The translations under genes and the position numbers were made by a program. The notes under the pieces are model-generated. The model searched no databases, had not been told where the DNA came from, and was given only the letters and a program-made list of their open reading frames with translations. From Antedon mediterranea (taxonomy: Eukaryota; Echinodermata; Crinoidea; Comatulida; Antedonidae): a stretch of 64,000 bases of DNA. Positions 9,724 to 50,550 of this stretch are shown in pieces. The DNA is taken from positions 18,404,932-18,468,931 of the forward strand of contig NC_092679.1 in assembly GCF_964355755.1 (NCBI RefSeq), read 5' to 3'. Position 1 is the first letter of the stretch. Each line of letters starts with the position of its first letter.

Positions 9724-11746
9724 TCAGGCAACATTTTGTTCGTCAAGATTTATCTTCATACTTACTTGTGACATATGAAAGTATTGGTGAATTTGTTCCT
9801 CTTTCCATTTAATAGCATAATTAAAAATGGTCTCATATAATGACATTAGGTTCGATACCGTTTCCTACAAAAATGCAGAAATTAAAAATTTTAATTCAAG
9901 CATTTGAAATGAAAATTTGTTTTGCTTATTAATCAGCGTTTGAGCAAAACATTGACCTACCTGTAATTGGTCATTAGGTGGGTTGAACAGATCAAAGCAT
10001 TGCGCTCCTTTGTGGTCCCCATTTCCCCATATTTCCATTGCATATGAAAATGGTATCTAAAACAAACATAATATATAATAATTCAATTCAATTTATTTCC
10101 ACAATATTATAACATACATACTGGATAATAAATGCAATGAAGTAATCATGTGGGAGGGGGAGAGGGAGAGAGTCATATAAGTCAGACCACCCAAGATATA
10201 ACATTATTAAATACGAATAAGAAAAATAAATAGCGAGTTCCAGTTGAAAGGAAAAGGCACGTTGACTATATGTTTTGTGCTCTCAATAGATGTAAACATA
10301 TATTTAAACATATATATATATATATATAGAAACATATATGGCATTTAACTTTCTTTTGTTCAGAATCCCCTTTGTCTTCCTCCTCTTCCCCAACCCCCAC
10401 ACCTCTTTCCACTAGGCCTTTGTACCTTCTTTATTCCAGACATATAGTCAAATATCGTGCCATCAGCTGGGTAATTATTCAACTTGTAACCTATTCCAAA
10501 ATTGAAATCATCTACAGACGCCCTCGCTATCTTGGAGGCTAGGTGTAGTTGTGCGTCCATGTTGTTGGGAACACGCTTCTCCTCCTTAGAGATGGAATCT
10601 GAAGTTTAATAAAATTAAAAAGTTATTCCAAAAAGGATTATGAGGTGCACATTCAAGTACATGCTTATTTTACTTTGTTTTGCCTGTTTTCTGTCTACAC
10701 TGTCAAACTAGTTTGACAAAAAAAAGTGTGATGTGCTCAAATATGGTAGTGATATGCCAAAATATGGTAGTGATATGACATGATCATGCCCATATATGGG
10801 CACATCACATATTTTGTCAAATTAAGTTTGGGAGCTTAATATATGATATGGGAAATAACTATCTTATATTACCTGCAAATGGAAGATATATTTGTCTAAC
10901 CCCAGAATGCAATGACACAAACATATCAAAGTGAAAACGTCTAGTGAGATCACGAAAAACAAAGCTTTCAGGCTCTATAAACGAAAAAAATGTAAATGCA
11001 TTTTATTGATTGAAAACAAACAAAAAGTACTAAAAAGTAGTATTATGAGATAAAAACCAACATGAACCTGAAAATGGGTGTGGCCCTCGGTACTCTTCAT
11101 CATTTGGATCACCTGAGCTTCCTTTACCGCCAAATTCCCAATCAAAGTTACGATCAAGATCAACGCCAACACTCGTGCCACGCCAACAATAATTATTCGT
11201 TCGCTCTATATGATTTCTCCCATCAGGATTAGCTATTACTATAATAAACAAATCGATGTGCGAAAGGACTTTTCTAGAAAATCCTTCCGTACTGGAGCCT
11301 CGAGCTGTGGCTAATCCGCTGGTGAGATTCGTCAATAAATGAAACATACTCTCGATGGGGAGAAACTCCCTTGCATGCTCTCCAAAAGATAATAAAATTC
11401 TAGGCTTATGGTCAGCAATGGTGTACATGTGCGATGCCATCCTGCTGTCCGAGAAATTGGAAATACGTAGTACGTATTGTGAAGCACCATTTCTAGATTG
11501 GTATTCTTCGTAATGCCTAATGTACCCCTGATTTTTAGTTAATAAGTCTTCAATATGATGTTTTATAGTTGATAGATTGTGATAAAATTTGTAGTCTGGT
11601 GTGTATATCTCGCGTCTTGGCTTAACATCACCAGATATTACAAAAGTTGTTAAAAAAATCCAGATATAGAAAGTTGAGGTCAAGGTGTAGATTGAAAAAT
11701 GAACTGTTTTCATATTTTTACGATACAGTGTCCTGAAAGTCACCAT
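9724..11746 (-). CDS. Zinc metallocarboxypeptidase, peptidase family M14 (5 exons)
   Basis: Removes C-terminal residues from peptides; secreted or anchored. Exons on the minus strand: 11746-11068, 10974-10873, 10598-10426, 10056-9961, 9864-9724, joining in phase to 396 residues. Catalytic set visible: zinc ligands in GEHAREF (HxxE) and in SLHSG; the arginine of NPDGR; CWRGTSVGVDLDRNFDW; a tyrosine in NNYPADG matching Tyr248; and the glutamate in SYAMEIWG matching Glu270. A hydrophobic stretch about 15 residues after the inner Met at 11713 looks like a signal peptide or anchor. The overall style (HAREF, CWRGT, DEEYRGP) recalls the plant and protist M14 group more than pancreatic enzymes, with no long propeptide. 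Odd: the usual NRNF is DRNF. The final exon could instead splice at 9763 (GTAAGTATG) to an unseen exon. A possible upstream coding exon is listed separately. Confidence 0.88.
10310..10330. repeat. (TA)n microsatellite
   Basis: A run of TA dinucleotides within a carboxypeptidase intron. Confidence 0.8.
10691..10831. mobile_element. MITE, family A, in a carboxypeptidase intron
   Basis: Left end CTGTCTACACTGTCAAACTA. The middle has the family words AAATATGGTAGTGATATG and CCATATATGGGCACATCAC. The right end is decayed (TTGTCAAATTAAGTTTGG). It lies between the exons ending at 10598 and 10873. Confidence 0.7.
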
Positions 11747-12169
11747 CGTTTTAACCGGTTTAAGGTGGTACTTCAAGTCAAATAAAGTGTGTTGATTGTC
11801 TTCACAAACTGAAAAGAAACATATTTTAGTATTAAATTTATTAAGAATGTTCATGGGTTATCTAATCCATTTTATACTCCAGATTTAATGAAAATTATGA
11901 TAAATTATTGAATGTTATTAATTATTAATACATGTTTTGCTATGTATATTTCAGCCAGGTCTAAAACGACTTAAAAATTTAAACGATAAGATAATTGATA
12001 TTAACTATAGTCTAGGCTAGGACTAGGAGGTTTGAATACTGAATTAATGTGTGAATGTAATGCCTCCCATGCATAGAAGAAATTGGAATACGATATGTTA
12101 CACGACAGTTATAATATATATACGTATCATCATTTAGTGTGATTATTATTATTTCCATAATGTACTCAC

Positions 12170-12901: not shown

Positions 12902-14911
12902 ATGAAATTAATCACATATCTAAGTTTATCATTATTTTTAATTACCTATGTGTCAACAGCTAAATTATCAGATTTCAGACTGTGTACGGATCCGAAATGT
13001 CAGGGTAAGTTAGGCTCTTCGAAGGACACATCTTGTCCTCCCCCACACCGGCAAACACGGTACATCATCGTGTACACGGTTGAATGATTCCGGAAGTCAA
13101 CTTAGCCTAGGTATGGCCTACAGTATTAGATAGACCCCGGTCAATGACTGGCGGAGTTGTTATTATTTATATTATAAAATGTTATCAAGTAAATTACATG
13201 CTGCTGTTGTTATTATTATTAATCAATAACATAATAGAACATCATGCTTTAAAGATGTATTGTCCCCCTGAAAAAATAATTCTTAAAATTGTTTTTGAAT
13301 ATTCTATTTTAATGTAACATAATAGATGGTTATCCACTTTGACAAAAAATTGGATGAAAAAAAAATGTATTTACCTGAAAAAAATGTAATTTAAAGCAAA
13401 AAATGGTCAAATTGGCTGCCAGCTAATGGATTTTTGATTGAATTTTACCATTTATTTTGTCATTTTATAAGTGAAAACATGATTTTTTCTTTTTTTTCTA
13501 TTGAAGTGATTAACTTGATTAAAGCTATAAAATAACATATTCAAAGTCTGATTTAACTAATCTTCATTTTTCATGTTTTTTGGGGACAATACACCTTTAA
13601 CTATTATTAACTATTATAAATGAATGTTAAATTTGATTTATTTACCCTATTTATATCGTTTATTATTTAAGCCATACATATGTGAAGTGTACTTTTGTTG
13701 TAACAAAAATATTGTAAAAAATAAATGTTTGTTTACAAGTGATATATATCTATCTTTACAACTGCTGCAGTTTTTTTTTTCGATTGGATAGGTGGTCAGA
13801 GCAATTTTTCATTGTTCATCTATGATCTATTAGTATTTTGCCGTGTTTGTGTATTTGGTGATTTCATCTCTCCATCTCCTCTTACTTATTGTCTCACTCT
13901 GCTCCTTTTACCATTTCTTGGTTACTATTCTTTGAGCTTCTTGGTCCATTTATTATCTTGAGAACTCTTGTTACAGTATGTTTCCTGCCCATCTCCATTT
14001 CATTTCTTTGATCTTTTCTATAATATCCTTGATGTTTGTTTTTTGTCTCATTTTGGTGTATTTTGTAGTAAAACACATGACTGCCAGTAAAATTTCTATA
14101 CCATGGCCCTGTAGTCATTGTTTATAATATCATTTCTCCTAATTTAATAGAGCTGTCCCTGAATAGAGCTTGGCCATAGTAAAAGCTCTATCTACACTAT
14201 CTAAACTTTATGTGACAAAAAATGTCATGTCCATATATGCATGTTTTTTTCAAATAAAGTTTGATAGTTTAGACAGAGCTTTAGTTCATGTCATGGGAAA
14301 GTGTCTTTTTGAAGCTTGGATCCCACTAGTTTGCAACACTAGGAGATAAGTGCAATGCAAGGGATTTGACCAATTATCAACATGTGCTTACATCATTGCT
14401 AACGTCATTGCGTTGTGTCCTATAGAGAACCAAGCATGATAGAGGTGTTCCCTGAATATTGTCCCAAATGAGGGGTCCCACGTAGGCTAGAGTATGCTGG
14501 TTATGTTATCAAGCTTGTTTTACTTTCCTCAACAGCACCAATATCAAAAGGCAAAGCCCTGGTGACACACATGTCCGCTGATACTGATTTACTAAGTTTT
14601 GAGAAGGGTGACGATATACTAATTTTTTCAAGAGGTGCTGGAATGAAACCTGATCTATGGGGTGGTCAGGTAAATAGTTTTCATAAATATTTATTAAAAG
14701 TATTATGCCACATTTGTACTGTATACGAAAATAAGTTGTTAAGTAGTGAATAATTCCATCAGAGGAAATCTCAGTTGACAAATTATATATATTTATTTTA
14801 TCTTATATCTAATAGGTTGTGGGAAAAGGAGTATTAGGCTATTTTCCTAAGAATTTTTTCCAAGAAACACAAGTATTTAATAGCAATCCAAAGCATGTAG
14901 TTGCTATAACT
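12902..14911 (+). CDS. MIA3: TANGO1 exons 1-3: signal peptide and MIA-type SH3 domain
   Basis: Exon 1 encodes a 20-residue signal peptide (MKLITYLSLSLFLITYVSTA) and the start of the domain (DFRLCTDPKCQ). Exon 2 gives LVTHMSADTDLLSFEKGDDI and DLWGGQ; exon 3 gives VVGKGVLGYFPKNFFQET. The order (cysteine pair at the N-terminus, FEKGD, W, GYFPK) is that of the MIA/otoraplin/TANGO1 SH3-like fold. In vertebrate TANGO1 this domain binds HSP47 with procollagen in the ER lumen. The start is the only ATG that yields a signal peptide. Exon 1 ends in phase 1, exon 2 in phase 0. Confidence 0.92.
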
Positions 14912-17900
14912 GTAAGTGTATTTTTTTGTCCTCATAGGCACAGGTATGATTTTTTGGGTGGGGTTTTGATATAATTATGATACAATAATATTGTTAGCGA
15001 AATAGCTAACAAGCATCAAATATGTTTTACTTTAGCACTCAGTACCTGTGCCTCTGTTATATAATAAGAATGAGAATGAGAAAAAGTCGCCCCAACCGAG
15101 ACTCAGACTCGGACCGCCTGCTTGATATGCAGATGTCCTAACCACTGGGGCTTTCATGGTATTGTTCAAACTCGATTGGATAGCGACTCTTTAACATTCT
15201 CGGCGTGGTACGGCGGAACAGCACTAGTCCTCAGTTGTACGCACGCGCAACAGAGATCAAATTGATACGCCCTCATCTTTCAGTATTTTTATTCACGAGG
15301 CGGGATCTCCGAAGAGATACTTTTATATATATAAACACAGCAGGCAAAGAACATTAATTCTAAACCACCCGGTGATATACTGAAATTTAATTAATTAATT
15401 TGAAACGATAAAGATGAGGAAATCTGTGAGAATGATAAAAAGTCGCCCCAACCAAGATACAGGCAAAGAAAAGTAATTCTACACTGCCCGGTGATACTGA
15501 AATTTAATTAATTAATTTTAAACGATAAAGATGAGGAAATCTGTGAGAATAAGAAAAAGTCTATACATATATTACTGTATTAATATTATTTTCAACACAT
15601 CAAATTACATTTTGCAGTATATGTTTAAGAAATTCTGCATACATTAAAAACATCTGGACTTTTATGACAGCATTGAACTACTGTATTGTAATAAAATTAA
15701 TCACAATTGTAATCAGTATGGCTCTGTTTGTAGTATTCAAATAGATAAAGGATAGCTTTGCAAATGATATAAAATCTGACCAAAAAGAAAACCAATGCAT
15801 CATGTTTAAGAGCCTCTGCTGATAAAATTTAATAAACACTATGTTAAAAAAAGCTTAATGTGCTTTTAAAATCCCATGATATTTCTGGAGCTTTGCCCCA
15901 TAAACCATGGAGGTATGGGCCTCTCCCCACCCTCGACACTACACTCTATAGCTGGCCTGCAAGATATAACAGTCAGACCCATACAATAGTGGAAACCCCT
16001 GCTTTAGAAGTATGTTATTATAATTATATTTAGGTGGTGTAGTAGTTGGTGTAAGAAGAACAATGAACAATAAAAATGTTTGTTATTTACAGCTTCAAAA
16101 GCCTGACATCCCAGTTGTTAATCAACCACCTAAAGAGATACCGCCCACATCAACTGCTGGTGAGCAACAACCAGAGTTACCAACTGGACAGCCTGTCGTT
16201 ATGGCTGAAGGTCAGCAAAGTGAAAAGACAGCTACACAACAAATACATGCACCACATGTGCAAGGAACTCCCCAACAACATCAGGAAACAGAAACAACAC
16301 AACATACTCAAGAAACACATACACAACAACACACCCAAGAAACACTGAAACCACAACATACTGAAGAAGCAAAAATATTACAACATAACCAAGAACCACA
16401 AGAACCACAACTATCACAGCAGGACAATACCAAACATTCCCAAGATGAAAACGCACAGCAACATATCCAACAAGAACAAATACAAGTGCCACAAAACACC
16501 CAAGAAGTAGAGACACAACAACACATACAAGAGGAACAAACACAACAAAATAGACATGAAGAACCACAACTTACCCCAGAAGCAACACTGGAACAAAATC
16601 AAGATGTGCAAACATTGGAACATAAACAAGATGAACCAGCAGTGCAACAAAATCAGGAAACACCAGAACAAACCCTAGAAACACATAAAACACAACAAAG
16701 TAAAGAAGAAGAAACACAACAGCTTAAACAAGAAGAACAAACGGGGCAGGAAGAAAAAGAAGCACTACAGCCCATCGAAGAAGTTCAAACACCAGAAGAA
16801 CACATGGGGCAGAAAGAAGAACCACTACAGCCTAAAGAAGTAGTTCACACACCTGAAGAACAAACAGGGCAGGAAGAAGAACCACTACAGCCCATCGAAG
16901 CAGTTCACACACCAGAAGAACCAACCGAAGAAATCAAAGAATTAGAAAAGATATCCGAGGTAGAGTCAGAAACTGAAACACAACAATCGGGTGAGGACAG
17001 TCCGCAGACTGTCATTGACCTTGATCAAAAGGATCAAACATCTGACGGTGACAAAGATGTAGAAAGCAAACAAACAAATGAGAAGACTGAAGGTTTACCA
17101 GAAATAGAAGATGAAGTAGAATCATTATCACATAAAATACCAGAATCTCCTTCTGAATTGGCTCTTGAGGTCTTGGAACCAGATGAAATTCCAGTAGCTT
17201 CAGGTATGTCTTTTTTATATTAATATAAAACTAACATTTTCTATTAAGTGTAAAAAAAAACCCATTAAAGCATTTTACTCTATTAAGAGTTTTGAAAAGA
17301 AGCCTTGGAACATGTAGGTTTACAATTAACTGCGTTTGCTACACCGTATTATCATCTAAAACTAAGTGTACATCTTGTTTTTGCTTTACTAACTATTCAT
17401 GCTTAAATATATAGTAATGATTTAGTTGCAGCCAATCCAGCAGCAGATGGTAAAACACAGAGCCAGGAGCCTGATAAGGTAGACACTACAAAACCTGGTA
17501 AAATAAATAAACATTCAGATAATAGTGATGTGTTTGTTTCTGATAATCAGATTGTTAGTAAAGACCATCATCATTCATTGGATGATGGCCAAAGAAATGG
17601 TGACCAAAGAATGGTAGATGATTTCTCAAAGTTTGTTGAACAGAAAACTGCACCTAATAATGTCGTTAATTCTGTTTTACAAAACACTGATGCTCAAAAA
17701 ATTAAGCTGGATACACACACATTTGAAAATGAACAGAACTCGAAAGAACACAGTCCATCTGCTGATGTCACAACTAACCCTTCTGAAATTCATGATCAAA
17801 AAAGTATAATTAATAATAAAGGAGTTTGTTCTAATAGTGTGCTGGAGTTCATTATGAAAATATTCCAATGTAAAGTTGAAGAAGTCTTCACTGAGAAATC

Positions 17901-20900
17901 ACTGGTTCGTGAGCCTAACATTAAAAGTGAAATTGACACAGTAACCTCAACAATAGAATTAACAGATGAAAAAGCTCCTGATAAAAATGCTGTTGATGTT
18001 AGTGGACTTCTGGAAATATCGCCTTGTCAGTATGTAAGTTTTGAGTCATTTGTCTTTAAGAAGACAATGCTTCGTAAGCCACTTGCACCTTTATTGAAAA
18101 TCACCACAGACAATACTGATGAATTAAACATTGATTCAGATACTACAGTGTCTTCATATTGCAGTAGTGTTTTAGATGAATGGCTGATGTTAAGAAAGAG
18201 ACCATCTTCAATATGTTTATTGCCTGATACTTTATTAGATAAAAACAAGGAATCACAATCTGATGATAAACCAAAAGTAGAACCAGCTAAAGAGGAACAG
18301 GAACATGTGTCAGTTAAAGAAACAGAATCAGAAGTAGAACCAGCTAAAGAACAGAAACATGTGCCAGTTAAAGAAACAGAAGTAGATTCTGCTAAAGAAC
18401 AGGAACATGTGGCAGTTAAAGAAACAGAATCAGAAGTAGAACCAGCTAAAGAACAGGAACATGTGCCAGTTAAAGAAACAGAATCAGAAGTAGATTCCGC
18501 TAAAGAACAGGAACATGTGGCAGTTAAAGAAACAGAATCAGAAGTAGAACCAGCTAAAGAACAGGAACATGTGGCAGTTAAAGAAACAGAATCAGAAGTA
18601 GAACCAGCTAAAGAACAGGAACATGTGCCAGTTAAAGAAACAGAATCAGAAGTAGATTCCGCTAAAGAACAGGAACATGTGGCAGTTAAAGAAACAGAAT
18701 CAGAAGTAGAACCAGCTAAAGAACAGGAACATGTGTCAGTTAAAGAAACAGAATCAGAAGTAGAACCAGCTAAAGAACAGGAACATGTGCCAGTTAAAGA
18801 AACAGAATCAGAAGTAGAACTAGCTAAAGAACAGAAACATGTGCCAGTTAAAGAAACAGTATCAGAAGTAGATCCAGCTAAAGAATTGGAACATGTTTCA
18901 GTTAAAGAATCAGAAGTAGATTCAGCTAAAGAACATGAAAATGTGTCATTTAAAGAATCAGAAGTAGATCCAACTAAAGAATTGGAACATTTGTCGAAAT
19001 TAGAAGTAAAAGAATATCCAGAATCAGAAGTAAATAAAACAGAAACCAAACAAGAAGAAGCATTACATAAAGTAAAACAAGAAGTCAAAGAACCAAAAGT
19101 AAAGATAGAACCAAAACCTGATGTGCCTACACAAATTCATAATGGTATATGCCCTAATGATTTTCTTTCTTGGTTAATATCAGCATTTCACTGTGATGTC
19201 TTGGAACATGTTCAGTCTTTTAAGCAGTTAATGAATGGTACCAATTCAAATTCTTCTTTACATTTTTTAGATATTGTTCTTTCAACATGTCCTAGCCATC
19301 ATGACTTTCCACAAGCTGATTTAAATAGTCATTCTTCTGTGATTAGTATTCCTGCACATTTAAGAAAAGAGTTGTCAAAGTATGATCTTTCAAGAAAAGA
19401 TGTTTGTCATTTCTCTTGCTTCCATTATTTTTTACAGTTTATAGGTCGTCAAGATTTGTGCTTCTCTTATGATATTCCACTTCAGATTGATAATAGTCCT
19501 TCCTCTTTCACAAAAACCATCAGTCCAAAACCAATTAGCATGCTAATGACATGTCCCTCTGTCTTGAACCTATTTTATTCAGAAACAAGAATGTGTCCTT
19601 TTGTCAAAAATTATTCAAAATCAGCCAAACAGGAAGTTGTCTATACTACTGTTGGTGATTGTGTCGATTACATGATTGATTTAATCCTTCCGCAAGTTTG
19701 TCTCACTAGAATGTCTGACAAATTTGAATTTTCAACTGATAAGGAAACAGTCGCAGAAACAACAGCAATTTCAGCAGCTAAGTTGAAAGATCCAAATGTT
19801 TGCAAAACTATTGAATTTCAACAGGTTGTAAAAGAGTTGTATCAGCCAGTTTGCTCTGCAGAAATTAAAGTTCAAACTAAATATTTACCCACACTGTTTA
19901 AAGACAACTTAATAAAACCTGATACAATTGGCTCACAAAGTACATGTCCTAATACCGTACTAACAATATTTCAACCAATTGTCCATAAAATGTGTTCTCC
20001 AAAAACTGCAAACATTAGAGAAACTGTTAAAGCAGAGGATACCACACCAACATTGTTAAACAAAATCTTAATCAAATCTGATATTAAATCTATTGCAATT
20101 GGCCCACAAAGGACATGTCCCAACACTGTACTAAAAGTCTTTCAACCAATTGTCCATAAAATGTGTTCTCTGAGAGATCATAACCGTTCAGAAATGGTTA
20201 AACCAAAAGATACTACACACAAATTACAAGACATCTCAATCAAACCTGATACTAAATCTATTGATACCATTGGGTCACAAAATGTGTGTCCCAACACTGT
20301 ACTAAAAGTCTTTCAACCAATTGTCCATAAAATGTGTTCTCTGAGAGATCATAACCGTTCAGAAATGGTTAAACCAAAAGATACTACACACAAATTACAA
20401 GACATCTCAATGAAACCTGATACTAAATCTATTGATACCATTGGGTCACAAAATGTGTGTCCCAACACGGTACTAAAAGTCTTTCAGCCAATTATTGTCC
20501 ATAAAATGTGTTCTCCGAAAGATCTTAACCAATCAGAAACTGTTAAACCAAACAATACTAAACAAATATTGTTAAACAAAACCTTAATCAAATCTGATAC
20601 TAAATCTATTGATACCATTGGGTCACAAAATGTGTGTCTCAACACTGTACTAACAGTCTTTAAATCATTTGTTTATAAAATGTGTTTTCTGAAAGAAAGA
20701 TCTTATCCTAAACAAATTGTTGAACTGAAGGATTACTCTAAACAAGAAATTAAAGCTAATCAAAAAAAATCAGTTTGCCCAAGTGTTATGCTAACCTTTC
20801 TACAGCCATCTAAAAGTTTACAATGTAAAATTCCATTACCAGAAGCACATTTATCACATTGTTGTGTCAAAACATTTTCAAGCAGTATATTAAACATGTT

Positions 20901-23900
20901 TCTTCCTCAAAACAAAACAAAATGTAAAGCTAAAGATAGAAAACCAAGTACAAATTTCTATCCCTCTAGTAACTTTGGCTCCTCAATTTCTGTTATTAAC
21001 TTATTTGTACCTAAAAATAAGTTGGTATGTCCAGTTCGTCAACAGAACATGAAAACTAGTGTGGGCATTCCAACTTGCCCTAATATGGTATTAGACATTT
21101 TTATACCAATGCATAAATTAAAGTGCCCAATAAGGACTAACAAGACAGACGACACATTTGATGCTTCCAAAACTCATTCATGTCCAAACACTATGTTAGA
21201 ATTGTTCATGTCCGCAAATAAATTGATATGCAAAAATCTATTTTTTAAGGAACAAAGTCAAACCTATGGATCCACATCTTGTCCAAATTTTGTTTTTGAT
21301 TTGCTACTTCCACTATATAAAATGAAATGTGAAGCAAAGAAAAATATGAAACCTACAGAAGAATCACCATTTTGTACAAATGACGTATTAGAAATTTTAT
21401 TGCCTATGCAAAAATTGAAATGTAAAGTAGTTTCTCCTTTTTCTGGCAATCTTTCAACCAGTTGCCCAAATGAAGTTTTAGAAATCTTGCTTCCATCTCA
21501 CAAACAAAAATGTCTGATTGCATTTATTGACGTGATAAAAGAGAATAGTTGCCCGAATTTTGTTTTAATCATGTTCCTTCCTAATCATAAACTGAAATGC
21601 TTAATACCAAAAGCATCAGAACCAATTGAAGATGTAGACTGCCTCAATTACTTTCTTGAAATGTTTCTTCCATCCCATAAATTAAAATGTTCAATGAGAA
21701 ATTATTTGCCAGAGGTCTCTTGTCAAAATACTGTTCTAGATATGTTTCTTCCAATACACAAATTAAAATGCCTTAAAAAGGTATCTTTGTTAGGAAACTC
21801 TTGTCCAGACACTGTTCTCCAAATGTTTCTTCCATCATCTAAATTAGTTTCCATACCAACAGTAATGTCAAAGGTGGACTTGAACTATTGTCAAAACACT
21901 GTTCTCCAAATGTTTCTGCCTTCTCATAAATTAGTGTGTAAAACTCCACCCATCCAAGTTTCTCTTTGCAATGATGCAATTTTAGAGATATTCCTTCCAT
22001 TACACAAACAAAAATGTTTAGTTAAACAATCTAATAAGCCTGTATACCAAAATGATAAATGTGTGAACTATATTTTGGCGTTACTTGTGCCTGAAAATAA
22101 ACAAGTCTGCAAGAACAAAGTAATGGCAGAAAATGAGAATCACTCAGATACAGATGAAATTTGTATGAACATCGTTTGGCTTTGGCAACAAATTGCAAAT
22201 TCTAAGCCGATGTGCAATGTAGTACATTCAGACATAGAAATGACAATGCCTGTAAAAAAGAAGACTGAAAATGCAACATCTGTTGCCTCCGCCGTAAAAA
22301 TAGACTTGGCTGATAAAGAGTTTATCAGCAAAGATCCCTCCGCAATGAAAATGGACTTATTAGATGCCTCCGCAGTACAAACAGAGCCTAAAGAAACTTC
22401 ACCTATTGACCAAAATATCTTACCAGTACATCCAAAGACATCAGCGACTAATGGCAAAGATCCCCCGACAATAAAAATAGACTTTGATGCTGGTAAAGAT
22501 TCCTCGGCAGTGCAGACAGAGGCTAAAGAAATATCAACTCCTGGTCAAGATAATCTAACAATACATCAAAAGAAACCAGAGTCTAAAGATCCAAAATCGG
22601 TAGGAAAAGTGAACTTGGATGTGTCAGCAGTAAAGGCAGAGCCTCAAGCAACATCTCTTGTTCAAGATATTGTACCAGTACATTCAAAGACTCCAGAATC
22701 AACCATGTCTAATAATGATGTCTCAGCAGTACCTTCAAAGACTATAGAAGTAGTGTCTGTTGATCAGGATGTCTCAAAACACCATCTAGTAACTGTGGAA
22801 GAAACATCTAACAATCAGGATGGCAAATTAGTTAGTCCAAAGAAAGATAAAAGAACATCCTCTGCTCCATCAGTAAATTCAGAAAGGCGGAAAAAATCTG
22901 TTTGGAAAACCCACGATATCTGTTTAAATACATTTTTAAATATGCTGGATCTAAACCCATATTGTATAGAAACCTTGGAAACTAAACCTTCCAGAAATCA
23001 GATTATGCCACCAACATTTGATGATCTAGATCTTGACAACATGAAGGTATATATTTCTGATCAGTTCAATGATACTGATGTCAATCATCATGAGTTGGTA
23101 GTGACATCACACTATTCCATGCCACCTACATCAAATGCCCTTATTTGGCAATTTGAAAATCCCCAATGTTTACCAAAGAAAAAAATGCTGTACACAAATC
23201 ATAATGTAGTTGTCACTCCTTATATGGAAGACAGACTAAAGCCAAGACATCTCAAGGAACAAACTGCTGTTAAAAATGGTGAAGGAAAGAATGCTGATCG
23301 TGGTAGGAAAATAAACAAATTACAGCTTATTCTACATCACTTTTACATCCCTCTCCATTCCACCATCCAATTTCTTATTTGTTACCCAGCCTCCCTTATC
23401 TGCCTTCCATCTCTCTACCTACAGTACTCACTTGAAAGCATGGTTGTCTATTTTGAACAACTTTTTTTACTTAACTGAAGAATTGCTTTTGTGGCATCAA
23501 TCTTATTTCTGCACTTATAAAATTAAATTTTTAATCTCCCTTGTTTTAGATTGTTTGTAGGACTTTGCAGTGCCTTCTCTCTCATTAAATGCTTTTTTTT
23601 TATTCCAGACAGTTTTACAGCTTTTGCACATATTTTGTGTTTCTAACTTTTTGCCATTTGAAGTTCTAGATCTGTGGTGGTGGTGGATTTAGTATGAAAG
23701 CAAAGCTTGGTTTAAACTATTACTTTACTTGGCCATAGTACTCTCAAACAGGTTCAAAGAGTACCTGGACAATGCATGCTTTTAAACTTGTTCATAATTT
23801 CAATACTGTTGTAATGCTTTCTTTATTACAGGTGTTGTATACATTTCATTTTTCATTTGAAAATTGTTAATGAAATATTTAAATAAACATTTCATTGGAA

Positions 23901-26900
23901 CATTTTGTAATGTTGTCTATTGAATTAATCAAACAATAGAGACTTTAGGAATGGTGACACATTTTACCCTTACCTCATATAACAAATAATTTCCAATGAG
24001 GTGTGTATTTAATGTAAATTTATCATTGTTTTGGGTTTGCCTTTGTTAATTGTGCATGTTTTTACAATAACTTCTTTATTATGCTCATAAAAATAGTATA
24101 ATAATTTTAGTTGAGTTATGTTGGTTTATTATTTCATGTTTACTATTTGAATTGATTCATAATTTAATTTTACATCTTTGTATTTGTGGGGTTTGATTGA
24201 TTTTTGTTGAATTGATTTTTTTTTGTTATCAAGAGATAAAATGTTTGATTGATGTAGAAATACGAATACATTTCTTAAAAAATGTAACTATAAATTTAAA
24301 ATGATTTTTTATACAAACAGTTGCATTAATACAGTAACCTAAAATGAGTCTTATTGTTTAAAAACAAAATAATAGAACTCATGTTATTGTGCTATTTTTG
24401 CATCAATTTTAACATTTTATATCTTTTCATAATTTGTTTTAAAGACATTTATTCGATTGCGGTTTGCATATTGTGCAGTCAATTACTTTTTTCATGGTGA
24501 TGGTGTTTTTTATTTATCTATTGTTTCGTGAACTATAGTATGCATTTGTTTCTCTGTAGACTCAGAAGGCCTAGCCAGTGAATCACACCCACTAGAGTCT
24601 GAAGCTGGAATGAAAGGACCACAAGATAAGGTAAGAGATGAGCAATTTGAAAACAATATTCACAAGGAACAGCATGAGGTACAAGGTGGAGCGCATGTTA
24701 CTTTGGGCCATTCAGAAGGTGGTAGTGATATTGGAAATTTACAACCAGGAATTGTTCAAGTAGAGTCTGGTGTACCACCAGCTCTTGATGAAAGTGTTGA
24801 TGATGTTGCAGGAAAGAAAGAAAATGTTGAACAAAATCCAGTTTATGTAAAAGAACAAGATAATGAATTTGTTGACAATAAAGATCAAGAGAGTGAAGAT
24901 AATGTTGAAATGAAAGATGTTATTAGTGATTTTAGAGAAGAAGAAGTTCTTGATGAACACAAAGAGGCAGAGAATATAGAAGATCCAGCAACTCATCTTC
25001 AAAATGAGGTTTATAGTGAAATTAATGAGAAAGATGGAATAGAACCTGTATCAATAACCTTAAATGATTCTGAGAATCTTTTACACAAAAATGATGATAA
25101 GGATGAAGAAGAAAATAAAAGTTGTGAAGAAGAAAGACGCATCAAAGAAAGAAGGGTTGAAGAAGAAAGGTTAGAAGAAGAAAAAAGAGGTGAAGAAGAA
25201 AGACGAGGAGAAGGAGAAGAAAAACAGGACAAAGACAGACTAGAAATAGAAAAACAGGAGCAAGATAGACTAGAAAGAGAAAGACAAGAGAAATTAAAAC
25301 GTGAAGAAGAAAGACAGAAGCAAGATAAACTAGAAAAAGAAAGACAAGAGCAATTAAGACTGGAAGAAGAAAAACAGAAGCAAGATAAACTAGAAAGTGA
25401 AAGACAAGAGCAATTAAAACGTGAAGAAAAAGAAAGACAGGAGCAATTAATACGTGAAGAAGAAGAAGAAAAACTGGAACAATTAAGACGTGAAGAAGAA
25501 GAAGAAGAAGAAAAACGGGAACAATTACGACGTGAAGAAGAAGAAAGACAGGAGCAATTAAGACGTGAAGAAGAAGAAGAAGAAAGACAAGAGCAATTAA
25601 GACATGAAGCAGAAGAAAGACAGAAGAAATTAAGACGTGAAGAAGAAAGGCTTCTAGAAGAACAAAGATTAGAAGAAGAAAAGAGAATCGAGGAAGCAAG
25701 AATTCTTGAAGAAGAAAGAAGACTTGAGGAGGAAGAGGAATGGTTAAAATCAATGATTGAATCAGTAGATGCAGAGGATGAAAAAAGACTAAATGAGGAA
25801 ATAGCTGAAGAAAATTGGCTAAATTCTATTGTAAGTGAAGGGAACCATGACGAAGATTACGAAGATGAGGAAGAACGGATAAATAAGGAAATGCTTGAAT
25901 ATGCTAAAGAAGAAGCTAGACAAAATGCTGAAGAGATTTTGAGAGAAATGAAAAATATGGAATTTATCAGTGAGTCTGACACAGATGAAGATGACTACAA
26001 CAAAAATGTTGGGGTTACTTCAAATGATCCTGAAGAAAATGAAAAATCAAAAGAAGACATTAGCAAAGAAAGCAGCCAGCCTGACAACAAGATGGAACAA
26101 GCTGCTAAACGTAGACTTGTCAAAAACCTGTTAAAACCAAAGAGACATAAACAAAGACGTAAAGATGATGTTCACAATGCTGGGGATGATGTCAACAATT
26201 CTTTGGAAAGTCAAGTGCACAGCACTGAACAAACAATACAGACTGAAGAGAGTGGTGAACAAAATAGTATGAAAAAAAATGATTTTCAGTTTGGTGTTGG
26301 CTTAAAACAAATACCAGAAGAACAAGAAAAAGAAAACCCAGAGATTGATTTAAGTACCCAACAACAAAAGCAGCAAAAACAAGAAACTGAAGAGAAAATA
26401 GATTTAGTTCCAGAATCCCTACCAGATAAAATTGGAGATATAAATACAAATCAGAAAAATCCTTCTGATTCTTCAAGTAACCAAAATCTTAATTTCGACA
26501 AAATTGAAAAAGAATTTATTGAGTTTAATGAAAGGAAAGACAATATAAAGGAAAAAAATTACATTCTTGAAGATAATGAAGATAAACCTTTGGAGTCTGA
26601 TAGTACAGATGATTTTTACTTTGACTCTGAACAAAAAGAAAATACAGCTGACCAACAAGGAAACTCTAAAAAAGATGTTGATTTGGAATCACATAATTTA
26701 GAAGAAAATCATGCTGAAGAAATTGTTGAAACAGAAGTCAATTTAGATAAAGGAGTAAAAACTAAAACAACTGAGATTTTGGAATCAGATGTTGAAGTTG
26801 AATCAGATGTTGATTTAGAATCAAATGTCGATTTGGAATCAAATGATGATTGGAAATCAGAGGGTGATGACATTGATATTGATAAAGAACCACAAAGTAA

Positions 26901-29900
26901 TTCCAAAGAAAATCATGTAAAAGAAATTGTTGAACCAGAAGATGATTTAGCTAAAGGAGTAAAAACTGAAACTGAAATTGTTGAGGAACCAGAAAGACAT
27001 TTCCAACAAGAGGATGTAAAGGAAGTTGAATCAGATTTGGTAAGTGAGGGTTTTGTAGAGGGCCTAAGCGATTCACAAGCTGTTGAAGATCAGGTAGAGC
27101 AAACTAAAAGAGATGAAGACATATATGTGGAACAAGAAGAAAATGAAGTAGATAATGACATGGAAAATGGCAACAGACAGAAAGAGCCAATTCAACCCAA
27201 TATATCAGCAATCCATAGTGTTCCCTTGGAAATCGAAAGAAACACAGCCTCTCCAAAAATACCCGAAGTTCATACTAATAGTGACCCGCTAGTAGTTGCT
27301 CGAGTTGGAGATGTGCTAAAACCAAATCAGAAGAATGTATTGCCAGATGCGACTCCACAGAGGTCATCTCATCAGGGTGATTCTCATGGTCACAGTGGTC
27401 AAGATCTGGAATCTGATACATATGTGGTTCACCGAAAAAGAACTCTTAAGGTGTAGTCTTGATCTCCTGTTCTTTTGGATGTTGCTCTGCCTGATTGCCA
27501 ACGTAATAGTCCTAATTGCTTTTAATCAAACTAACATCAAATATATAAAACAAAAGTCTGATCTGCAAAGAGTTTTAAGTCTGTCAAATGAAATAATTTG
27601 TAAATGATTCTCAGCGAACATTTTCATTTGGAATCTTAAATATTTGAAACATCGTTTCATGCTACTATTTTAGCTACCATTTATGATTTTGTAGCATCAT
27701 TTCACTATGCTACACTTTGTGAAAATGTTCCCTGATTATGTTAATTCTGCATGCATCTGACCATAAATTTAGTTTATGCAACTAAATTAAGGAATTTACC
27801 AAGCAACTAAATTGAATTGCAATAATTAATAATAAATTTGTATTATATGTATACAGTACCAAGCAAACTGTAAAAGCACCTGGCATGCATTACTAATCTA
27901 TTGTGGCATAATAATGGAAAATGGATGTTTTGTTTTTTATTTTGTGCATTTAGGTTACCACCATACTGGCTATGTTAAAATATAATATTGTACAATATAT
28001 AATGGTCAGTTAATATTGTTCTAATATTTTTTAATTTTCTCATTGGATTTATATATTAACTATCACTGTTATGTAATTTTAATCTTAACGACACTATTAT
28101 CTAAAGGCTCCTACCAATTCTGCGGTCAAGAAAATTCCAAACAAAAATGTTTTCAAAATTTTACATAGGCCTTTTTATTATTATTATAATGTCTATAATT
28201 GTATTTTAAATTAATTTAAATTTGTGCTTAATAATATTCTAAAAGAAATTGATAACATTAGTAATTTATGATATGCTGCAGTGACTGGTAGATATGATTT
28301 TAGATTAAATCTTTTGCATGTACCAATCCATTCAAATTATAATGTATTGTTGTAAAACAGCTGCACACTCCACATGCAATTAACCTGTTTGTACAGTATG
28401 CATGATTAATTAGTATTATGAATATGCATGAACTAAAGTACTTGAATTTAAGTTCTGCTCTGTCGATTTAGAGACTTTAGATTTCTTTAGTAGCATGTTC
28501 TTTAGTTTATTTTTATTTTACATTTTTAGCTGAGAAAAAAGTAACAAAATCAGATAACTAAAATTAGATAGATTTTTGACAACAAAATTAATTTTGCATC
28601 ATAAATGGAAAAGTACTCTAATAATTGCTAAGTATTATTAAGATTTTTTAGTTTTGTTAAACTTTTTTAATTGTCATCCGAAACTAATTATTCTATATTG
28701 CAGTTACTGCAGTAACTACATAATGATTTGCAAAAGAAGGTTAAAGAGTAAATAAACGTTGGACCTGGTTCCTTATTCTTTCCTTCATCATTGCATTCAT
28801 TTCTGCTTTATTTCTAGAAGTCAGTTGAGGAGAACCTAGAAGAAGAGGATGACAACAAACCTGTTGTAAATGATACAACGCTGTATGATGTTTGGTTAGA
28901 GTTGAAAGCTGGTATTCGTCCAGGTGTCCAGAGCTTAGTAGGTCAATTAAACCCTTTACTTGAGCAGGTAAAGTTCCACAATTTGTTCCTATAAGTATCA
29001 CATTGCACTATTGTTTGAAGTTTTAAGTAAAACCTTTTATAAAGGTTTTTTTTCAATTATGTAGTATTTTTTTAGCAGTGGCGTAACAGCTACTTCATGG
29101 ATGGATAAAAAATGTATATAATCTTTGTTATTTAGATGTTATTATTTTCTACATTTTATGATAATCCATTTTTGTTAATTTTTTGTCTTTCAGCTTCCAG
29201 ATGATATGCACAAACAGTTGATTTCACCTGACTTGTGGGGTTATCCATGGATTGCAATACTTTTTGCACAGTCATTTGTTGTATTTATGTTCATAATGTT
29301 GTATGGCTGTGTAAGTACAACTTTTATATGTTTATATTTACACAAACATTCTTGATGCAAAATAATTAACTGTAATCTAAGTTATACAATTTATTAACTT
29401 TGTTTCTTTTATAACACTATAGTGTCTTACTATAATTCACCAAATTTCTGAGTGTCTGTTCCAGCTTTATTCAAAGACTAGAGGTAGCAAACTTGGTGGG
29501 TGGGTGCAGCTCAGTATAAGAATAATCTGTAGATAGTTTGTTTGTCTGACCTTTATCCTTGCTCTTTATCTTTAATATTTATACTACTATGCATCCTAAT
29601 AGTTAATTCTTTTTTACTTCTCAGATGTGTAGATCAAGAGCATCTAGAAGTAAGTATCTTTGCTTAGAAGATTTGCTTTGTTTTAAAAAACTTTACCTAC
29701 AGTATGCCAATATTTTAGCCAGTATGTGGAATAATCAATGCAAATGTTATACTGGTTTAATTAAGACATTGATGGTTTCCATTGTTAATCAATTATTTTA
29801 TGTTTTATTTGTAGAGTTAAAGGTGTTACATGAGGCCGAGTTGTTAAACCAAGAAAATGCCAAAGAAAATTTATATGACGCTTATGAAAACATGGCTTCT

Positions 29901-32900
29901 GTGGTAAGTTTTGGTCTTGACATGACTGGGTAGCTATTTAGCATACACTCTTGCAGTGTAGATAGGCCTATACTGTCATTTTCCTCTATACCACATATAT
30001 ATTTTATTTATATTTATTTTTTTTGTAGGCTAAAGAGTACCATCAGAAGTTCAATGACTTAGAAGAAAAAAGTTTGGATTTTGATAATAAAATTAAAGAA
30101 GTTGAGGTTTGTACAAGTTCAATGTAACTGGTTTTTCATCTAATATTTCAAAGAATGAGCATTATAATATTGTAATGAATTCAAGTTGAAAAATAAATTT
30201 ATATATATTTGTTCATCATTTTATTTGCAGAATGAGAAATTGGAAGTGGAGTTAGAACTGAAAACTGTTCGTGAAGAACATTCAGATTTGTACAAGCAAC
30301 ATGAAGATACAGTAGAAGATTTACAACAGCACCAGCAACATATAGCAAAACTACAGAGCGATATTGATTCAGCTTCTAACTTAATTCAAGATCTTAAATC
30401 ATCAATTCAACAGGTAATTTACAACTACCTAGAAACAAGAGAATATAAATTAGCGGACTTTCAATTTGCAATAACCTAGGAACTTGTTACGTCATGTTAA
30501 TTCATTTTGCGCGTGCAGGGATATGGTGACATGCTCCTAGATTCTGTGATACATGTTTTGGCGAATTCTAGTTCCAGACAGTGTCAAAAAACAATAATTA
30601 CGTGCAAATCCTAATTGCCGTGGGTCCGTGGAGGACCTAATCTGAATTTCCTCAGTTTCCAGTTAAGCTTGAGGACAAATATAAATACCTTTACCTTAAT
30701 TGAAACACCCTAACATGCAGGTCCAACGTCCTAGGTCTTCTCAATTCTCAATTACTTCCACCTAACTAAAACCGTTAAATCTATTAAACCGTTAATACTA
30801 TTAAACCGTTATAACTATTAAACCGTTATAACTATTTAGCCGTTAAATCTATTAAACCGTTAAATCTATTAAACTGTTAAACACTATTAAACTATTAAAA
30901 GCTGTAAAAAATTATTAAACCGTTAAAAACTATTAAACCGTTAAAAACTATTAAACCTTAAAACTATTAAACCGTTAAAAATGATTAAACTGTTAAAAAC
31001 TACTAAACCGTTAAAAGCTATTAAACCGTTAAAAACTATTAAACCGTTTAAAACTATTAAACCATTTAAAACTATTAAACCGTTACACTATTAAACTATT
31101 AAAAGCCGTAAAAAATGATTAAACCGTTAAAAACTATTAAACCGTTAAAAACTATTAAACCGTTAAAAACTATTAAACCGTTAAAAACTATTAAACCGTT
31201 TAAAACTATTAAACCGTTAAATCTACTGGACCGTATAAGTCTATTAAACCGTTAAAAACTATTAAACCGTTTAAAACTATTAAACCATTTAAAACTATTA
31301 AACCGTTAAACACTATTAAACTATTAAAAGCCGTAAAAAATGATTAAACCGTTAAAAACTATTAAACCGTTAAAAACTATTAAACCGTTTAAAACTATTA
31401 AACCATTAAATCTACTGAACCGTATAAGTCTATTAAACCGTTAAAAACTATTAAACTATTATTTTTCTTGTGTATAGCTTGAAGATCAGCTAAAAAATAG
31501 TATAGAAAAAGGGGCTCAACTTGAGCTTGATTTGGGAACTGCTCAAGAACAAAATGAATTATTGGAAGAAACCAAACAGCAGGTATTTTGAAAGAAAATA
31601 TTTCTTTTTTTTTAATGTATCTTATTAAAATATTCTTTTATTTACTTACTTAATTTGATTTTATTATTTCGTAGTATGCACAGGACACGGATGGCTGGAA
31701 ACAAAGGTATGTATTTAAAATATATATATATATATCCAATCTGCAGACAGTACTGTTTCGATCTTATTAGATTTCGTCAGTGTAGCTCCGGTTTCAAAAT
31801 GAAATGTACCGCAGAACTGGCACAATATATAAGCTGAGCCAGGTGTGCGGGACATGGTACACAGATTTATAAACAGTGCACAAGCTCAACGAGCGATATA
31901 TATATATATTTTCCTAAATATTATAACTAAGTTGTATAAATTATTAGAGTATTAATAAAATTGAGAAATTTGAATACACTTTTTGTTTTCTTCTAAAAGA
32001 CATTCTGAAGTTCAAAATGAGATGGATAGGTTGATTGAGCAACAGACAGAATTTAAGGAAACTATCAAAGAAAAAGAAGATGAAAATGAGGTATTGTATA
32101 ATCGGAAATAGAATTGTATATGCCTACTTGAACAAAGCTCGAACCCCGACCTCCAGATAACTAACCTGCCATTCATACTGTCTACACTATCAAACTTGTT
32201 TGACAAAAAAAGTGTGATGTACCCAAATATTATAGTGATATTCCCAAGTATGGTAGTGATGACATCATCATGTCCATATTTGGGCACATCAACTTTTTTT
32301 GTCACATCAAGATTGATAGTGTAGACAGAACGTTAGTTTCAACGGTAAAATAGATTCCTGTATGCAAATACATAAACAAACAGATGTCTATTCTACTCTT
32401 TTTATTTATGCAAATAAATAAACAAACATAATAGAATAGACATCTGTATGCAAATTAATTGTGCATATAATTATGCATAAACAAAACAAGGTATAATCAG
32501 GAATAGAATAAAATCTAAATAGACTATTTAATATTGATTTGAAGACTTTTGAATAATTTAAAACACATTTTTGTTTGTATTTGTAGGTTTTGAAGGACTG
32601 TCTTGTTCAATTAAAAGGCCTTGAAGCTGATGAGGAAGATGGAACAGGTAGGAGAACCAGAGACAAATATATTAAATTATGTCTTGATTTCTGTCATGAT
32701 TTTGTGATTTGCGATAAGAGTTGATTCACAGCTTGTTCCCGCTGGTAAATGCTTTCTCTTGCATTTCAAATAACTAGTTATCTAGTAATAATCGCATATA
32801 TTCTAAAAATTAATTTCCAGAAGGCGATTTAGAAATGAAGATTCAACAGTTAATGGATGTTTCTAAGATCAATACTCGGTTGGCAGCGACAGAAGAAGAG

Positions 32901-35900
32901 AGACAGCGGCTGGAGAACAGCCTACAAGAACAAACGTCTCAAAGACAACTTCTAGATAGTAAGATTTTTAAGTTTATTTAGTGTATCAAGTAAAATAGAT
33001 AGATCAATGATATAAGTCAATGAATCAATCATGGCCTAGGTTGTACCATAGAGGTATAAAATCTAATTTTATACCTCCATGGTTGTAATACTATTCACCT
33101 AAGACTGTAATTTCCTAAAAAAAGGCAAGTTTGTTTTATGACACACGAAGAGCTACTCATAAAAAAAAAGTATGAAGTAAGGTAAAGGAGAGTTAAAGTC
33201 GTTAAATATCATGAGCTTCATAAAGTGATACTTAACTCTATCTGGTCTGCAAGCAAGATGATATATAATTATAATCTAGAAAACTGTTTAGAACCCCTGT
33301 CTTATATTACTTTTATGCACCTTTGCCTGCCTCTGTTATCCCACAGACCAAGTAGAAGATTTAAAGCTACAACTGAAAGGATTAACTAGTGAATTTAGCA
33401 AAGTTCAAGGAGCACACAATCAAGCCGAATCAAAACATGAGGTATTACAGCAGTACTGGAAGGAACGAGAGACAGAACTGCAAAGGTATGCTGATAATAT
33501 GTTTATATACTCGTCTTTATTCTACTTCTCATAGAATCATCAAGTTCTTCTGTACTTATTATTTCTTCATTGTTTTCAACAGGAAACTAGGAGTAACCGA
33601 CGCCAAAAATATTGAATTAAATCAACAGTTAGATGATTATAGGAAAAACTCTACAGATGCTCAAGAAGATTCTGCAAACTATAGGTAATTGCATTGGTTT
33701 GTGTACTAGCCTAATGGGCTCCCAAATTTCAATATGTTCTTGCTCAGATAATTATCTTTTTCAAATATTATCTTCATTTTTCTTTTTGATGTCTTGTGTA
33801 AACAATTTTAAATACATGTTGGTCACGTAAAATCCGATATGACATATGTTGATAAACCAAATAGGAAAAACTCTACAGATGCACAAGAAGATTCTGCAAA
33901 CTATAGATAATTGCCTTGATTTGTTTACTAGCCTAATGGGCTAGTAGAATATAGTGTGTTCTAGCCCACTATTTCTGTAGCCCATAATAACCTGATATTA
34001 AACATCAATGTCTTGTGTTGTTAAATGAGCCTGATTAAGATAATTGTTCCTCCCAAATTTCAGTATGTTCTTGCTCAGACAATTATTTTTTTTCAAATGT
34101 TATCTTCATTTTTCTTTTTGATAATGTCATGTGTAAACAATTTGAAATATGTGGTAATATCTTAATCATACATGTTAATAGATCATAGCATACATCCAAT
34201 TTTCACTAACATATTTTAATATGTCTGCATGACGAGTATTAAATCTTGTTTGAATTTGATTTTCTAGTGATTTTTGATTACATTTTTGTATTTTAGAAAG
34301 CAAGTTAAAAACCTGATGGATGAAATGGAGAAACAAAAGCAGAGTCTCAGTAAAGAGGTAGAGTGTGTTTTAAAATCCACTAATATTTTTAATTTAAACA
34401 TCATATTGCATATTCCATTACAAACTCTGTATTCTCATATGTGTTAATAATTTATTTAATTTATAAACATTTTGATTACCTTAGGTTGCTGCCCAGGAAC
34501 AAAAGGCTCACAACAATTGGGTAAATTATTATTCAATTTATAAATAGTTACGATTTGGCGTTAGCAGATTTATTTATTAAAACATTTTAAAAATATTGCT
34601 TTAAAAAAAACACTTTAAATGATCCATAGACATCTGAGAGTCTCAATGACAAGATATTTATTATTAGAAGAAAAACAGATTTTAATGAAACAATATTCGA
34701 TTTACAGATTGCTGCAAAGAAGTCTGAACGAGAATTACAGGAAGCTAAAAACGATGCAGCTCTTTTACGGCAAAGGTCAGTTGATTCTTTATTAATAAGA
34801 AAGTATTAATTTGATTAAAAAACACATTTTTTTAATTTAAATAATTATACTACACCATTTAAGCATTCTTTTATGATAATTTTTCTTTTCATTTTTAAAA
34901 CTTTTTTTTCAGGTTGACAGAACTTGAAGGACGTAAAGCTCCAAATGAGAACGTTCTAGTAGTTAAACCTTCCCCCTCTGCTCCTTCTCCACATCGTAAG
35001 AATTTTTTCATTTATTCATGTTTCTACATATCAAACCGGTCATTTAAATAAATCGGACACCTGAAGTTTTGAAGTTAACTCTAATAACAACCAGATTTCA
35101 GTAGGGAATCTTTTATTGCATATGCCTTCAAATAATTATTTTATAAGATATATGTTTAAAAACAATAAATAAACAGAATTTTGTTTTAAGTCCAAAACAA
35201 AATTAAAGAATAGATATTTGGGACAAAATGTCTATAACAGAACATTGAACGTTTTTTGTTTATTTTATAGCAACATCAACCGGAAGAGGGGGCCAATCAA
35301 GGTAATGTTATTGTGTCTTTCGTTTGTGTCACTTTTATTTTTGTTCTGGTCTAGTGATTGGATTTTTTATCATGACAAGAAATGCAGTAAAGCAATAACT
35401 ATGAGTAAAAAGAGACTTGTTACATCCTGTCGTATAATTGTTATTGAAAATATTTATATTTACAGTGAACGTGGAAGTACTAGACGTGGGCCAAGCAGGA
35501 ACAGCATCGCAGACATCCCTTCACCTCCATTCTTAGACAACCATCGGCCAGGTTCACCACCAAGACGGCGTACACCTCCAGGAATGTACGGTCCTCCTCC
35601 ACCACTCCATCCGGATGAGTTCCGTGGATTTCCTCCACCATCAGATTACCGCCCTCCACCTCTTGGGCATTTTGATGATTTCGATCCTCATCTAGGCCCA
35701 CGACCAGGATTCCCGGGGGATATGGACATGATGAGGCCTCCATTCCCGGATATGGAATTTGACGGAATGCGTCCACCACTTGGTCCGGATCATCCTGGAA
35801 TGTTTTCACCACTCATGTTTCCTTCTCCAGGGGATCATCGTTTCCCACCTCCTGGTGCAATGCCACCTCCAGGTGGAATACCTCCCCCGGGTGGAATGCC

Positions 35901-49300: not shown

Positions 49301-50550
49301 TCATTTGTGCCATAGTAACCACTTTTGACATAAATCGTTACTATAGCATAATAAACATGCGCAGAGTCGAATAATGGGTTCTTCGCATTTCCATTGTGCT
49401 ATAGTAACCAGTTTTATCGAAAAATAAAAAGGTCGAAAATCAACATTTTTTGAAAAAATCCCTGTTCTATAGTACAGGGAATTTTTCGAAAAATTGCCAA
49501 TTTTCAACCCTTTTATTTTTTGACATAAATGATTACTATAGCATAATAAACATGCGCAGAATCAAATAATGCGTTCTGCGCATGTCAATTGTGCAATAGT
49601 AACCACTTTTGACATAAATGGTTACTATAGCATAATAAACATGCACAGAGTCGAATAATGGGTTCTGCGCATGTCCATTGTGCTATAGTAACCAGTTTTA
49701 TCAAAAAATAAAAAGGTCGAAAATTGACCATTTAAAAAAAAAATCCCTGTACTATAGTACAGGGAAATTTTCGAAAAATGACCAATTTTCGACCCTTTTA
49801 TTTTTTGATATAAATGGTTACTATAGCATAATAAACATGCGCAGAGTCGAATAATGGGTTCTGCGCATGTCATTTGTGCAATAGTAACCACTTTTGACAT
49901 AAATGGTTACTATAGCATAATAAACATGCACAGAGTCGAATAATGGGTTCTGCGCATGTCCATTGTGCTATAGTAACCAGTTTTATCGAAAAATAAAAAG
50001 GTCGAAAATTGACAAATTTTCGACCCTTTTATTTTTTGATATAAATGGTTACTATAGCATAATAAACATGCGCAGAGTCGAATAATGGGTTCTGCGCATG
50101 TCATTTGTGCAATAGTAACCACTTTTGACATAAATGGTTACTATAGCATAATAAACATGCACAGAGTCGAATAATGGGTTCTGCGCATGTCCATTGTGCT
50201 ATAGTAACCAGTTTTATCGAAAAATAAAAAGGTCGAAAAGTGCGTATTTTGGCAATTTGTTGAAAAAATCCTTGTACTATAATAATAGTACAGGCATTTT
50301 TCGAAAAAAAGGAAAATTTCGACCTTTTTATTTTTTGACATAAATGGTTACTATACAGAATAATTATAACGCAATATATGCACATATATAGCAGTAGTAT
50401 TTCATAATAATATTTTTTTTAAAGTGCGTATTTTGGTAATTTTTTCCAAAAATATGCAAATTTCGACCTTTTTATTTTTGACATAAATCGTTTCTATACG
50501 TCTATAAGATGATGATAAAGCAATATATGGGCATATATAGCAATATTATT
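37345..50550. repeat. 13-kb satellite array of two alternating hairpin modules
   Basis: Tandem units of two lengths, about 197 bp (module 1 plus module 2) and about 92 bp (module 1 only). Module 1 is an inverted repeat: GGTTACTATAGCA, CATGCGCAGA, a 14-base loop, TCTGCGCATG, TGCTATAGTAACC. Module 2 is a longer inverted repeat with arms AATAAAAAGGTCGAAAATTG and CAATTTTCGACCCTTTTATT, centred on the perfect 18-bp palindrome CCTGTACTATAGTACAGG. I counted 22 module 1 copies in a 3-kb stretch, so about 90-95 in all (estimate). Units are very similar along the array. Short minus-strand frames of 60-156 codons recur because the repeat does; they are not genes. No transposase is present. Confidence 0.95.
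41476..48015. repeat. Higher-order duplications within the satellite
   Basis: Long stretches recur at fixed distances: 41476-43083 at +2983, 44982-45543 at +2472, and 40126-41466 at +5740 (45866-47206). A smaller one, 38185-38494, recurs at +1401. Variant units (for example the truncated one with ATTGGTCAATTTTCGACC at 41865, 44848 and 47320) keep their order in each copy, so multi-kilobase blocks were copied as wholes. Confidence 0.85.

Follow-up and report, generated by a model that had tools for sequence, protein, structure and literature searches.

TANGO1 (MIA3), of the MIA/cTAGE family, loads bulky cargo, collagen for instance, for export from the endoplasmic reticulum (ER), and its lumenal region is poor in cysteines in vertebrates. 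According to an excerpt of PMC13255678, this receptor links ER exit sites to condensates of procollagen in which Hsp47, PDIA1 and PDIA6 are enriched, and an excerpt of PMC7829582 calls the role of the ER-lumenal part of Tango1 ‘still elusive’. Invertebrates are without HSP47, and the localisation of procollagen at their exit sites is called unclear in the portion of PMC10119292 that was available. Here we describe a TANGO1 gene of the crinoid Antedon mediterranea, whose 5.9-kb exon 5 encodes a two-cysteine repeat array on the + strand. The gene is contained in a stretch of 64,000 nucleotides (contig NC_092679.1, positions 18,404,932 to 18,468,931), which we call the window and whose numbering is used throughout. 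A preliminary description of the window had reported about 20 two-cysteine units at 19945-22113, mostly with 15 residues between the cysteines (C-x15-C), within one exon of the lumenal part of TANGO1. Our analysis bears out each of these points.

The gene was modelled as eight exons that join in phase into 3490 residues, with no stop from the signal peptide and MOTH domain to a transmembrane segment. The GT-AG splice sites were read by eye from the sequence and the frame joins were checked; the signal peptide was judged by eye. Exon 1 (12902..13004) holds the start codon, a signal-peptide-like N-terminus and two MOTH cysteines, exon 2 (14536..14669) the MOTH/SH3-like domain, and exon 3 (14816..14911) the end of the MOTH domain. 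The spliced N-terminal domain matches PDB sequences of MIA (1i1j, expectation value (E) 6.2e-11) and human TANGO1 (7r3m, E 2.2e-10), and Pfam on exon 2 alone returned just SH3_2, under its cut-off (11.9 vs 21.8 bits). Two cysteines are all that the spliced MOTH domain contains, and absence of the second MOTH disulfide is given as the invertebrate state in the available part of PMC10119292. Exon 4 (16093..17203) is acidic and without cysteines, with a net charge of -65 over 370 residues.

Exon 5 (17432..23302, with the donor after 23299 or after 23302) encodes residues 482-2438 with 61 cysteines and includes the entire array, which corresponds to residues 1320-2042 of the modelled protein. It lies in a + strand frame of 2023 codons without a stop (17407-23478), and this frame and the splice phases place the array inside one exon. 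The same exon carries a 54-bp (18-residue) tandem repeat of about 13 copies (18275..18963, + strand) that is unrelated to the cysteine motif. A strongly acidic lumenal region (net -156) follows in exon 6 (24560..27450), the membrane-proximal region in exon 7 (28818..28967) and the transmembrane helix, at about residues 3469-3490, in exon 8 (29194..29310), where hydropathy is the highest in the model (mean 2.2 across the best 19 residues). Because the modelled frame places the array between the MOTH domain and the transmembrane helix, the array is predicted to face the ER lumen. An apparent transmembrane frame at 27320-27607, suggestive of a frameshift, was rejected, as it sits past the donor site at 27450 and exon 8 holds the modelled helix. 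At the start of the intron after exon 6 (27450-27607) there is a hydrophobic open frame, probably a product of chance in T-rich sequence and possibly an alternative exon.

As in other TANGO1/MIA3 proteins, the model contains a signal peptide, a MOTH domain with one cysteine pair, a long acidic lumenal region and a transmembrane helix. Open frames downstream, read unspliced, have coiled-coil-like (30168-30479) and proline-rich (35173-35967) sequence and may correspond to the cytoplasmic coiled coils and C-terminal proline-rich region of these proteins. In contrast to these proteins, the modelled lumenal region reaches about 3,450 residues and carries the two-cysteine array, of which the excerpts of PMC10119292 and PMC7829582 make no mention. 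The N-terminal MOTH domain of this protein is likewise a cysteine-bearing lumenal module, yet it occurs once, while the repeat has 17 residues and no sequence relation to it that is apparent by eye. A MOTH query of the genome found one TANGO1 locus, plus a weak match (C10, E 0.076, 25% identity). A search of the assembly for cox1 gave no match.

The repeated motif is approximately CPNxVLxxFLPxHKLKC, 17 residues with a strongly hydrophobic core between flanking cysteines. Within 19945-22110, 20 units match a profile of this motif, 18 of them across at least 16 of the 17 positions and two (from 20887 and 20998) through their final 13 and 11 residues. The cysteines are separated by exactly 15 residues in 16 units and by 16 in the unit at 20458, which means that the spacing is held in 16 of the 17 two-cysteine units, as had been claimed. 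One cysteine is gone in the remaining three of the 20 units, the second in unit 21802 and the first in the partial units from 20887 and 20998. The 16 exact units, chosen by their cysteines, were the source of the profile, and the cysteine invariance of those units is therefore by construction; of the 40 cysteine positions in the full set of 20 units, 37 are kept. The 722-residue array contains 17 C-x15-C pairs, made up of the 16 units and one coincidental pair (21028-21076); 5000 shuffles gave 2.0 on average and never more than 8.

Linkers between neighbouring two-cysteine units vary from 9 to 41 residues, and the units fall into two subfamilies on the + strand. Subfamily A (19945..20685) consists of five units at 19945, 20116, 20287, 20458 and 20635 with long linkers and a period of about 171 bp. 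A transitional stretch (20776..21030) follows, in which the profile matches the full unit 20776 and the two units without a first cysteine. Subfamily B (21076..22110) comprises twelve units spaced 78-105 bp, with the first six at 21076, 21181, 21280, 21373, 21463 and 21550 and the others at 21640, 21721, 21802, 21889, 21967 and 22060.

Unit similarity declines with distance along the array, which is the expected outcome of local duplication and supports the earlier proposal of that process. With the 16 exact units, in a test that the division into subfamilies A and B dominates, none of 5000 permutations was as extreme as the observed arrangement; with the 11 exact units at 21076 and beyond, 76 of 5000 were. 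Selection on the motif, which the preliminary description had taken the constant spacing to imply, was examined by comparing motif and linker among the four full 171-bp copies of subfamily A, with unit 20635 left out. Between copies 1 and 2, the proportion of synonymous differences per site (pS) is alike in motif and linker (0.37 and 0.35), whereas the non-synonymous proportion (pN) is 0.05 in the motif (2 of 40.2 sites) vs 0.31 in the linker (27.7 of 90.2; Fisher p 0.0007), six-fold lower in the motif. The corresponding pN values are 0.05 and 0.26 for copies 1 and 4 (Fisher p 0.004) and 0.00 and 0.17 for copies 2 and 4 (Fisher p 0.003), with pS in the last pair at 0.19 in the motif and 0.11 in the linker. 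Copy 3 behaves as copy 2 does. In none of these pairs was the difference in synonymous rate between motif and linker significant (p 1.0 for copies 1 and 2, 0.24 for 1 and 4, 0.62 for 2 and 4). In the 12 older units, pooled pS is near saturation at 0.79 with a pN of 0.31, and N3 is kept in 10 of the 12 and L6, P11 and K14 in 11 each. On balance the motif is more constrained than the linker: the motif has been kept and the linker has not. Such constraint argues that the exon is translated.

Weaker relatives of the motif had been noted at 17827, 19150 and 22921. We tested the 22 cysteines outside the array by scoring the decamers that they start against random 10-mers and against real non-cysteine 10-mers of the exon; p values are given in this order and are uncorrected for the 22 tests unless stated. 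All three places, each with C-x13-C spacing on the + strand, have significant similarity to the motif: 17827..17871 (p 0.00078 and 0.0021), 19150..19194 (p 0.00016 and 0.0011) and 22921..22965 (p 0.00026 and 0.0011). An additional diverged unit of the form C-x12-C at 19660..19701 (+ strand) has the best score (p 0.00004 and 0.0005). Multiplied by 22, the exon 10-mer values become about 0.012 for 19660, about 0.024 for 19150 and for 22921, and about 0.046 for 17827, which is borderline after correction. Cysteines 19417 and 18025 reach nominal levels only (p 0.028 and 0.038 against random 10-mers), and the decamer test gave no significant motif similarity for cysteines 19552, 18160 and 22162.

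Database searches agree with the previous statement that no named domain of this kind is known, with no match above chance in Pfam or PDB sequences. Pfam-A returned no family for exon 5 at E up to 1, one match under the cut-off for the array (Nitr_red_bet_C, E 0.17, 11.9 vs 27 bits), and a single family, in one of the 16 units (E 0.1), when E up to 10 was allowed. The only match among PDB sequences at E up to 10 was 2ajj, a 28-residue peptide (E 1.3). Protein searches of the genome, which used 19150-20832, 21064-21450 and 21460-22119 and not 20833-21063, found no convincing match outside the exon, although weak similarity may escape such searches. The marginal matches, at C6 (E 0.13, two stops), C5 (E 4.4) and C11 (E 6.2, one stop), resemble chance hits. 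Among the matches listed in the open-licence literature, none describes a repeat of this kind. The locus appears to encode a known protein, TANGO1, with an unclassified repeat unmatched in Pfam and PDB sequences, and a lineage-specific expansion of the array is possible.

The explanation that we favour, to which we assign a probability of roughly 45%, is a multivalent lumenal docking array, with many weak sites, for bulky cargo or its chaperones. It starts from the modelled lumenal placement of the array, its repetition, the fact that the motif is more constrained than the linkers, and the acidic blocks on either side of the basic array. In the ER lumen, some 20 short motifs for interaction would be strung together by flexible linkers. 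Each unit would probably form a two-turn helix at about positions 3-10, followed by the proline and a basic return segment, and would be closed by a disulfide between its own two cysteines. With many copies per receptor, weak multivalent capture of bulky cargo at ER exit sites may result, or the captured partners may be chaperones and disulfide isomerases bound to the cargo. Multivalent arrays of short linear motifs resemble this one in having a conserved short motif, drifting linkers and copy-number expansion in one exon, and differ from it in that the array here is cysteine-bracketed and in the ER lumen. One version, in which an unrecognised family of 17-residue cysteine-closed micro-loops serves as a multivalent array for cargo capture or condensate docking in the lumen of invertebrate TANGO1, and its copy number takes the place of the chaperone bridge, such as HSP47, of vertebrates, is one that we put forward tentatively and regard as doubtful.

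The preliminary description had suggested that each unit could be a short helix closed by a disulfide, and the array a beaded rod, a multivalent cargo-binding surface or a disulfide-linked oligomer. In an AlphaFold model of two units, each has a helix that covers unit positions 4-9 and ends before the conserved proline, at a mean predicted local distance difference test (pLDDT) of 58; the model suggests the helix tentatively and is consistent with short helices joined by flexible linkers. By simple geometry, a helix of eight residues followed by a return segment of six would let both cysteines meet, and the cysteines of the 12-13-residue forms could also meet. The rod was discarded: its linkers are variable and drifting, and the model of four units has no residue above pLDDT 50. 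With the motif kept and the linker drifting, a flexible string of beads is favoured and a rod is not.

From its composition, the lumenal chain is predicted to be a block polymer in which the middle is basic and rich in cysteines and lies between acidic blocks. The residues coded by 19150-22119 have a net charge of +39 in 990 residues, and the parts of exon 5 that flank them have -62 in the 572 residues before and -12 in the 393 residues after. Exon 6 has a feature of its own at about 25218-25841 (residues 2658-2865), a stretch of 208 residues without proline or glycine and with 38% E and 25% K+R. Opposite-charge pairs at i,i+4 number 54 in this stretch vs 39 after shuffling (standard deviation 4.8), and like-charge pairs 22 vs 41 (standard deviation 4.7), making it a candidate single alpha-helix (ER/K) strut in lumenal TANGO1. 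At 1.5 angstrom per residue, such a helix might keep the array about 30 nm off the membrane.

A number of results weigh against a docking array of closed helical units. Confidence in the structure models is low, with 13 of 52 residues at pLDDT 70-90 in the two-unit model and all 113 residues below 50 (mean 34), without confident packing, in the four-unit model; the alignments behind them were shallow (10 and 4 rows, all units of one protein), and the four-unit one has two gappy rows. The array has 39 cysteines, an odd number, and at least one of them must therefore be unpaired inside the array or paired elsewhere. Strict within-unit pairing also fails at least in the three units that are short of one cysteine. 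The copy comparisons that suggest selection have small counts and pairs that share copies, copies 1 and 4 have unlike pS values (0.46 in the motif vs 0.23 in the linker), and copies 2 and 3 resemble each other with almost no changes, too recent to inform. Unit 20635, which keeps both cysteines, breaks the pattern with a motif pS of 0.09 and pN of 0.15 against copies 2 and 3, and constraint on it looks relaxed. In the available portion of PMC10119292, the SH3-like domain of Drosophila is reported to bind collagen IV by itself, and an HSP47-like protein is held to be perhaps unneeded in invertebrates. An array is therefore not needed for cargo binding generally, and the one described here would supplement that domain, not replace it.

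Among the alternatives to a docking array, self-association survives best, and we consider it unlikely though worth serious attention. The units would bind one another or form inter-chain disulfides, and the resulting lumenal lattice would brace the TANGO1 ring from within. Each chain offers about 20 similar hydrophobic motifs, its odd cysteine number and three orphan-cysteine units provide candidates for inter-chain bonds, and its basic array adjoins acidic blocks of the same chain. The tight spacing within units and the drifting linkers, however, fit closure within each unit better, and assembly of TANGO1 rings is attributed to cytoplasmic parts of the protein.

A rather improbable explanation is that the exposed VLxxFLP mimics unfolded clients and recruits BiP or disulfide isomerases without direct contact to the cargo. 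A strongly hydrophobic core flanked by cysteines would suit such a bait, yet client-like recognition should tolerate loose sequence and N3, L6, P11 and K14 are strongly kept. Procollagen condensates are enriched in PDIA1 and PDIA6, as this reading would have it, but they are without BiP (excerpt of PMC13255678).

We disfavour neutral repeat expansion in a disordered tail, with no function for the motif itself, as very improbable. The second tandem repeat in the exon, the recent turnover indicated by 171-bp copies 2 and 3 (1 base different in 171) and the absence of constraint on unit 20635 would all agree with it. Against this, pN is lower in the motif than in the linker in all three informative comparisons, and the 12 older units have retained the motif despite near-saturated synonymous sites. 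A propeptide-like array, with units excised and released as loop peptides, is hardly credible, as only the 15-residue spacing, shared with the cysteine ring of natriuretic peptides, speaks for it, whereas there is no furin-type R-x-K/R-R site, only four dibasic sites occur in 727 residues, and the gene model is that of a transmembrane receptor.

Elsewhere in the window, an open frame on the - strand at 11030-11857, divergent to TANGO1, resembles a metallocarboxypeptidase by eye. An intronic tandem array of about 39 copies of 18 bp occupies 30769-31456, and a coiled-coil-like exon piece occurs twice, at about 33640-33690 and about 33864-33910, nearly identical by eye and possibly a partial exon duplication. 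Downstream of the gene, tandem repeats whose nested periods are about 89, 195 and 285 bases make up a large higher-order array at 37631-50239, and 63479-63742 is a tandem array with a 16-base unit and a 65-base higher period.

A repeated lumenal motif under selection, beyond the MOTH domain, is a concrete candidate, open to test, for a second element of TANGO1 that binds cargo or chaperones, and, being so small, it is easily expressed and assayed. If the micro-loop reading were true, copy number would tune export capacity for bulky matrix cargo.

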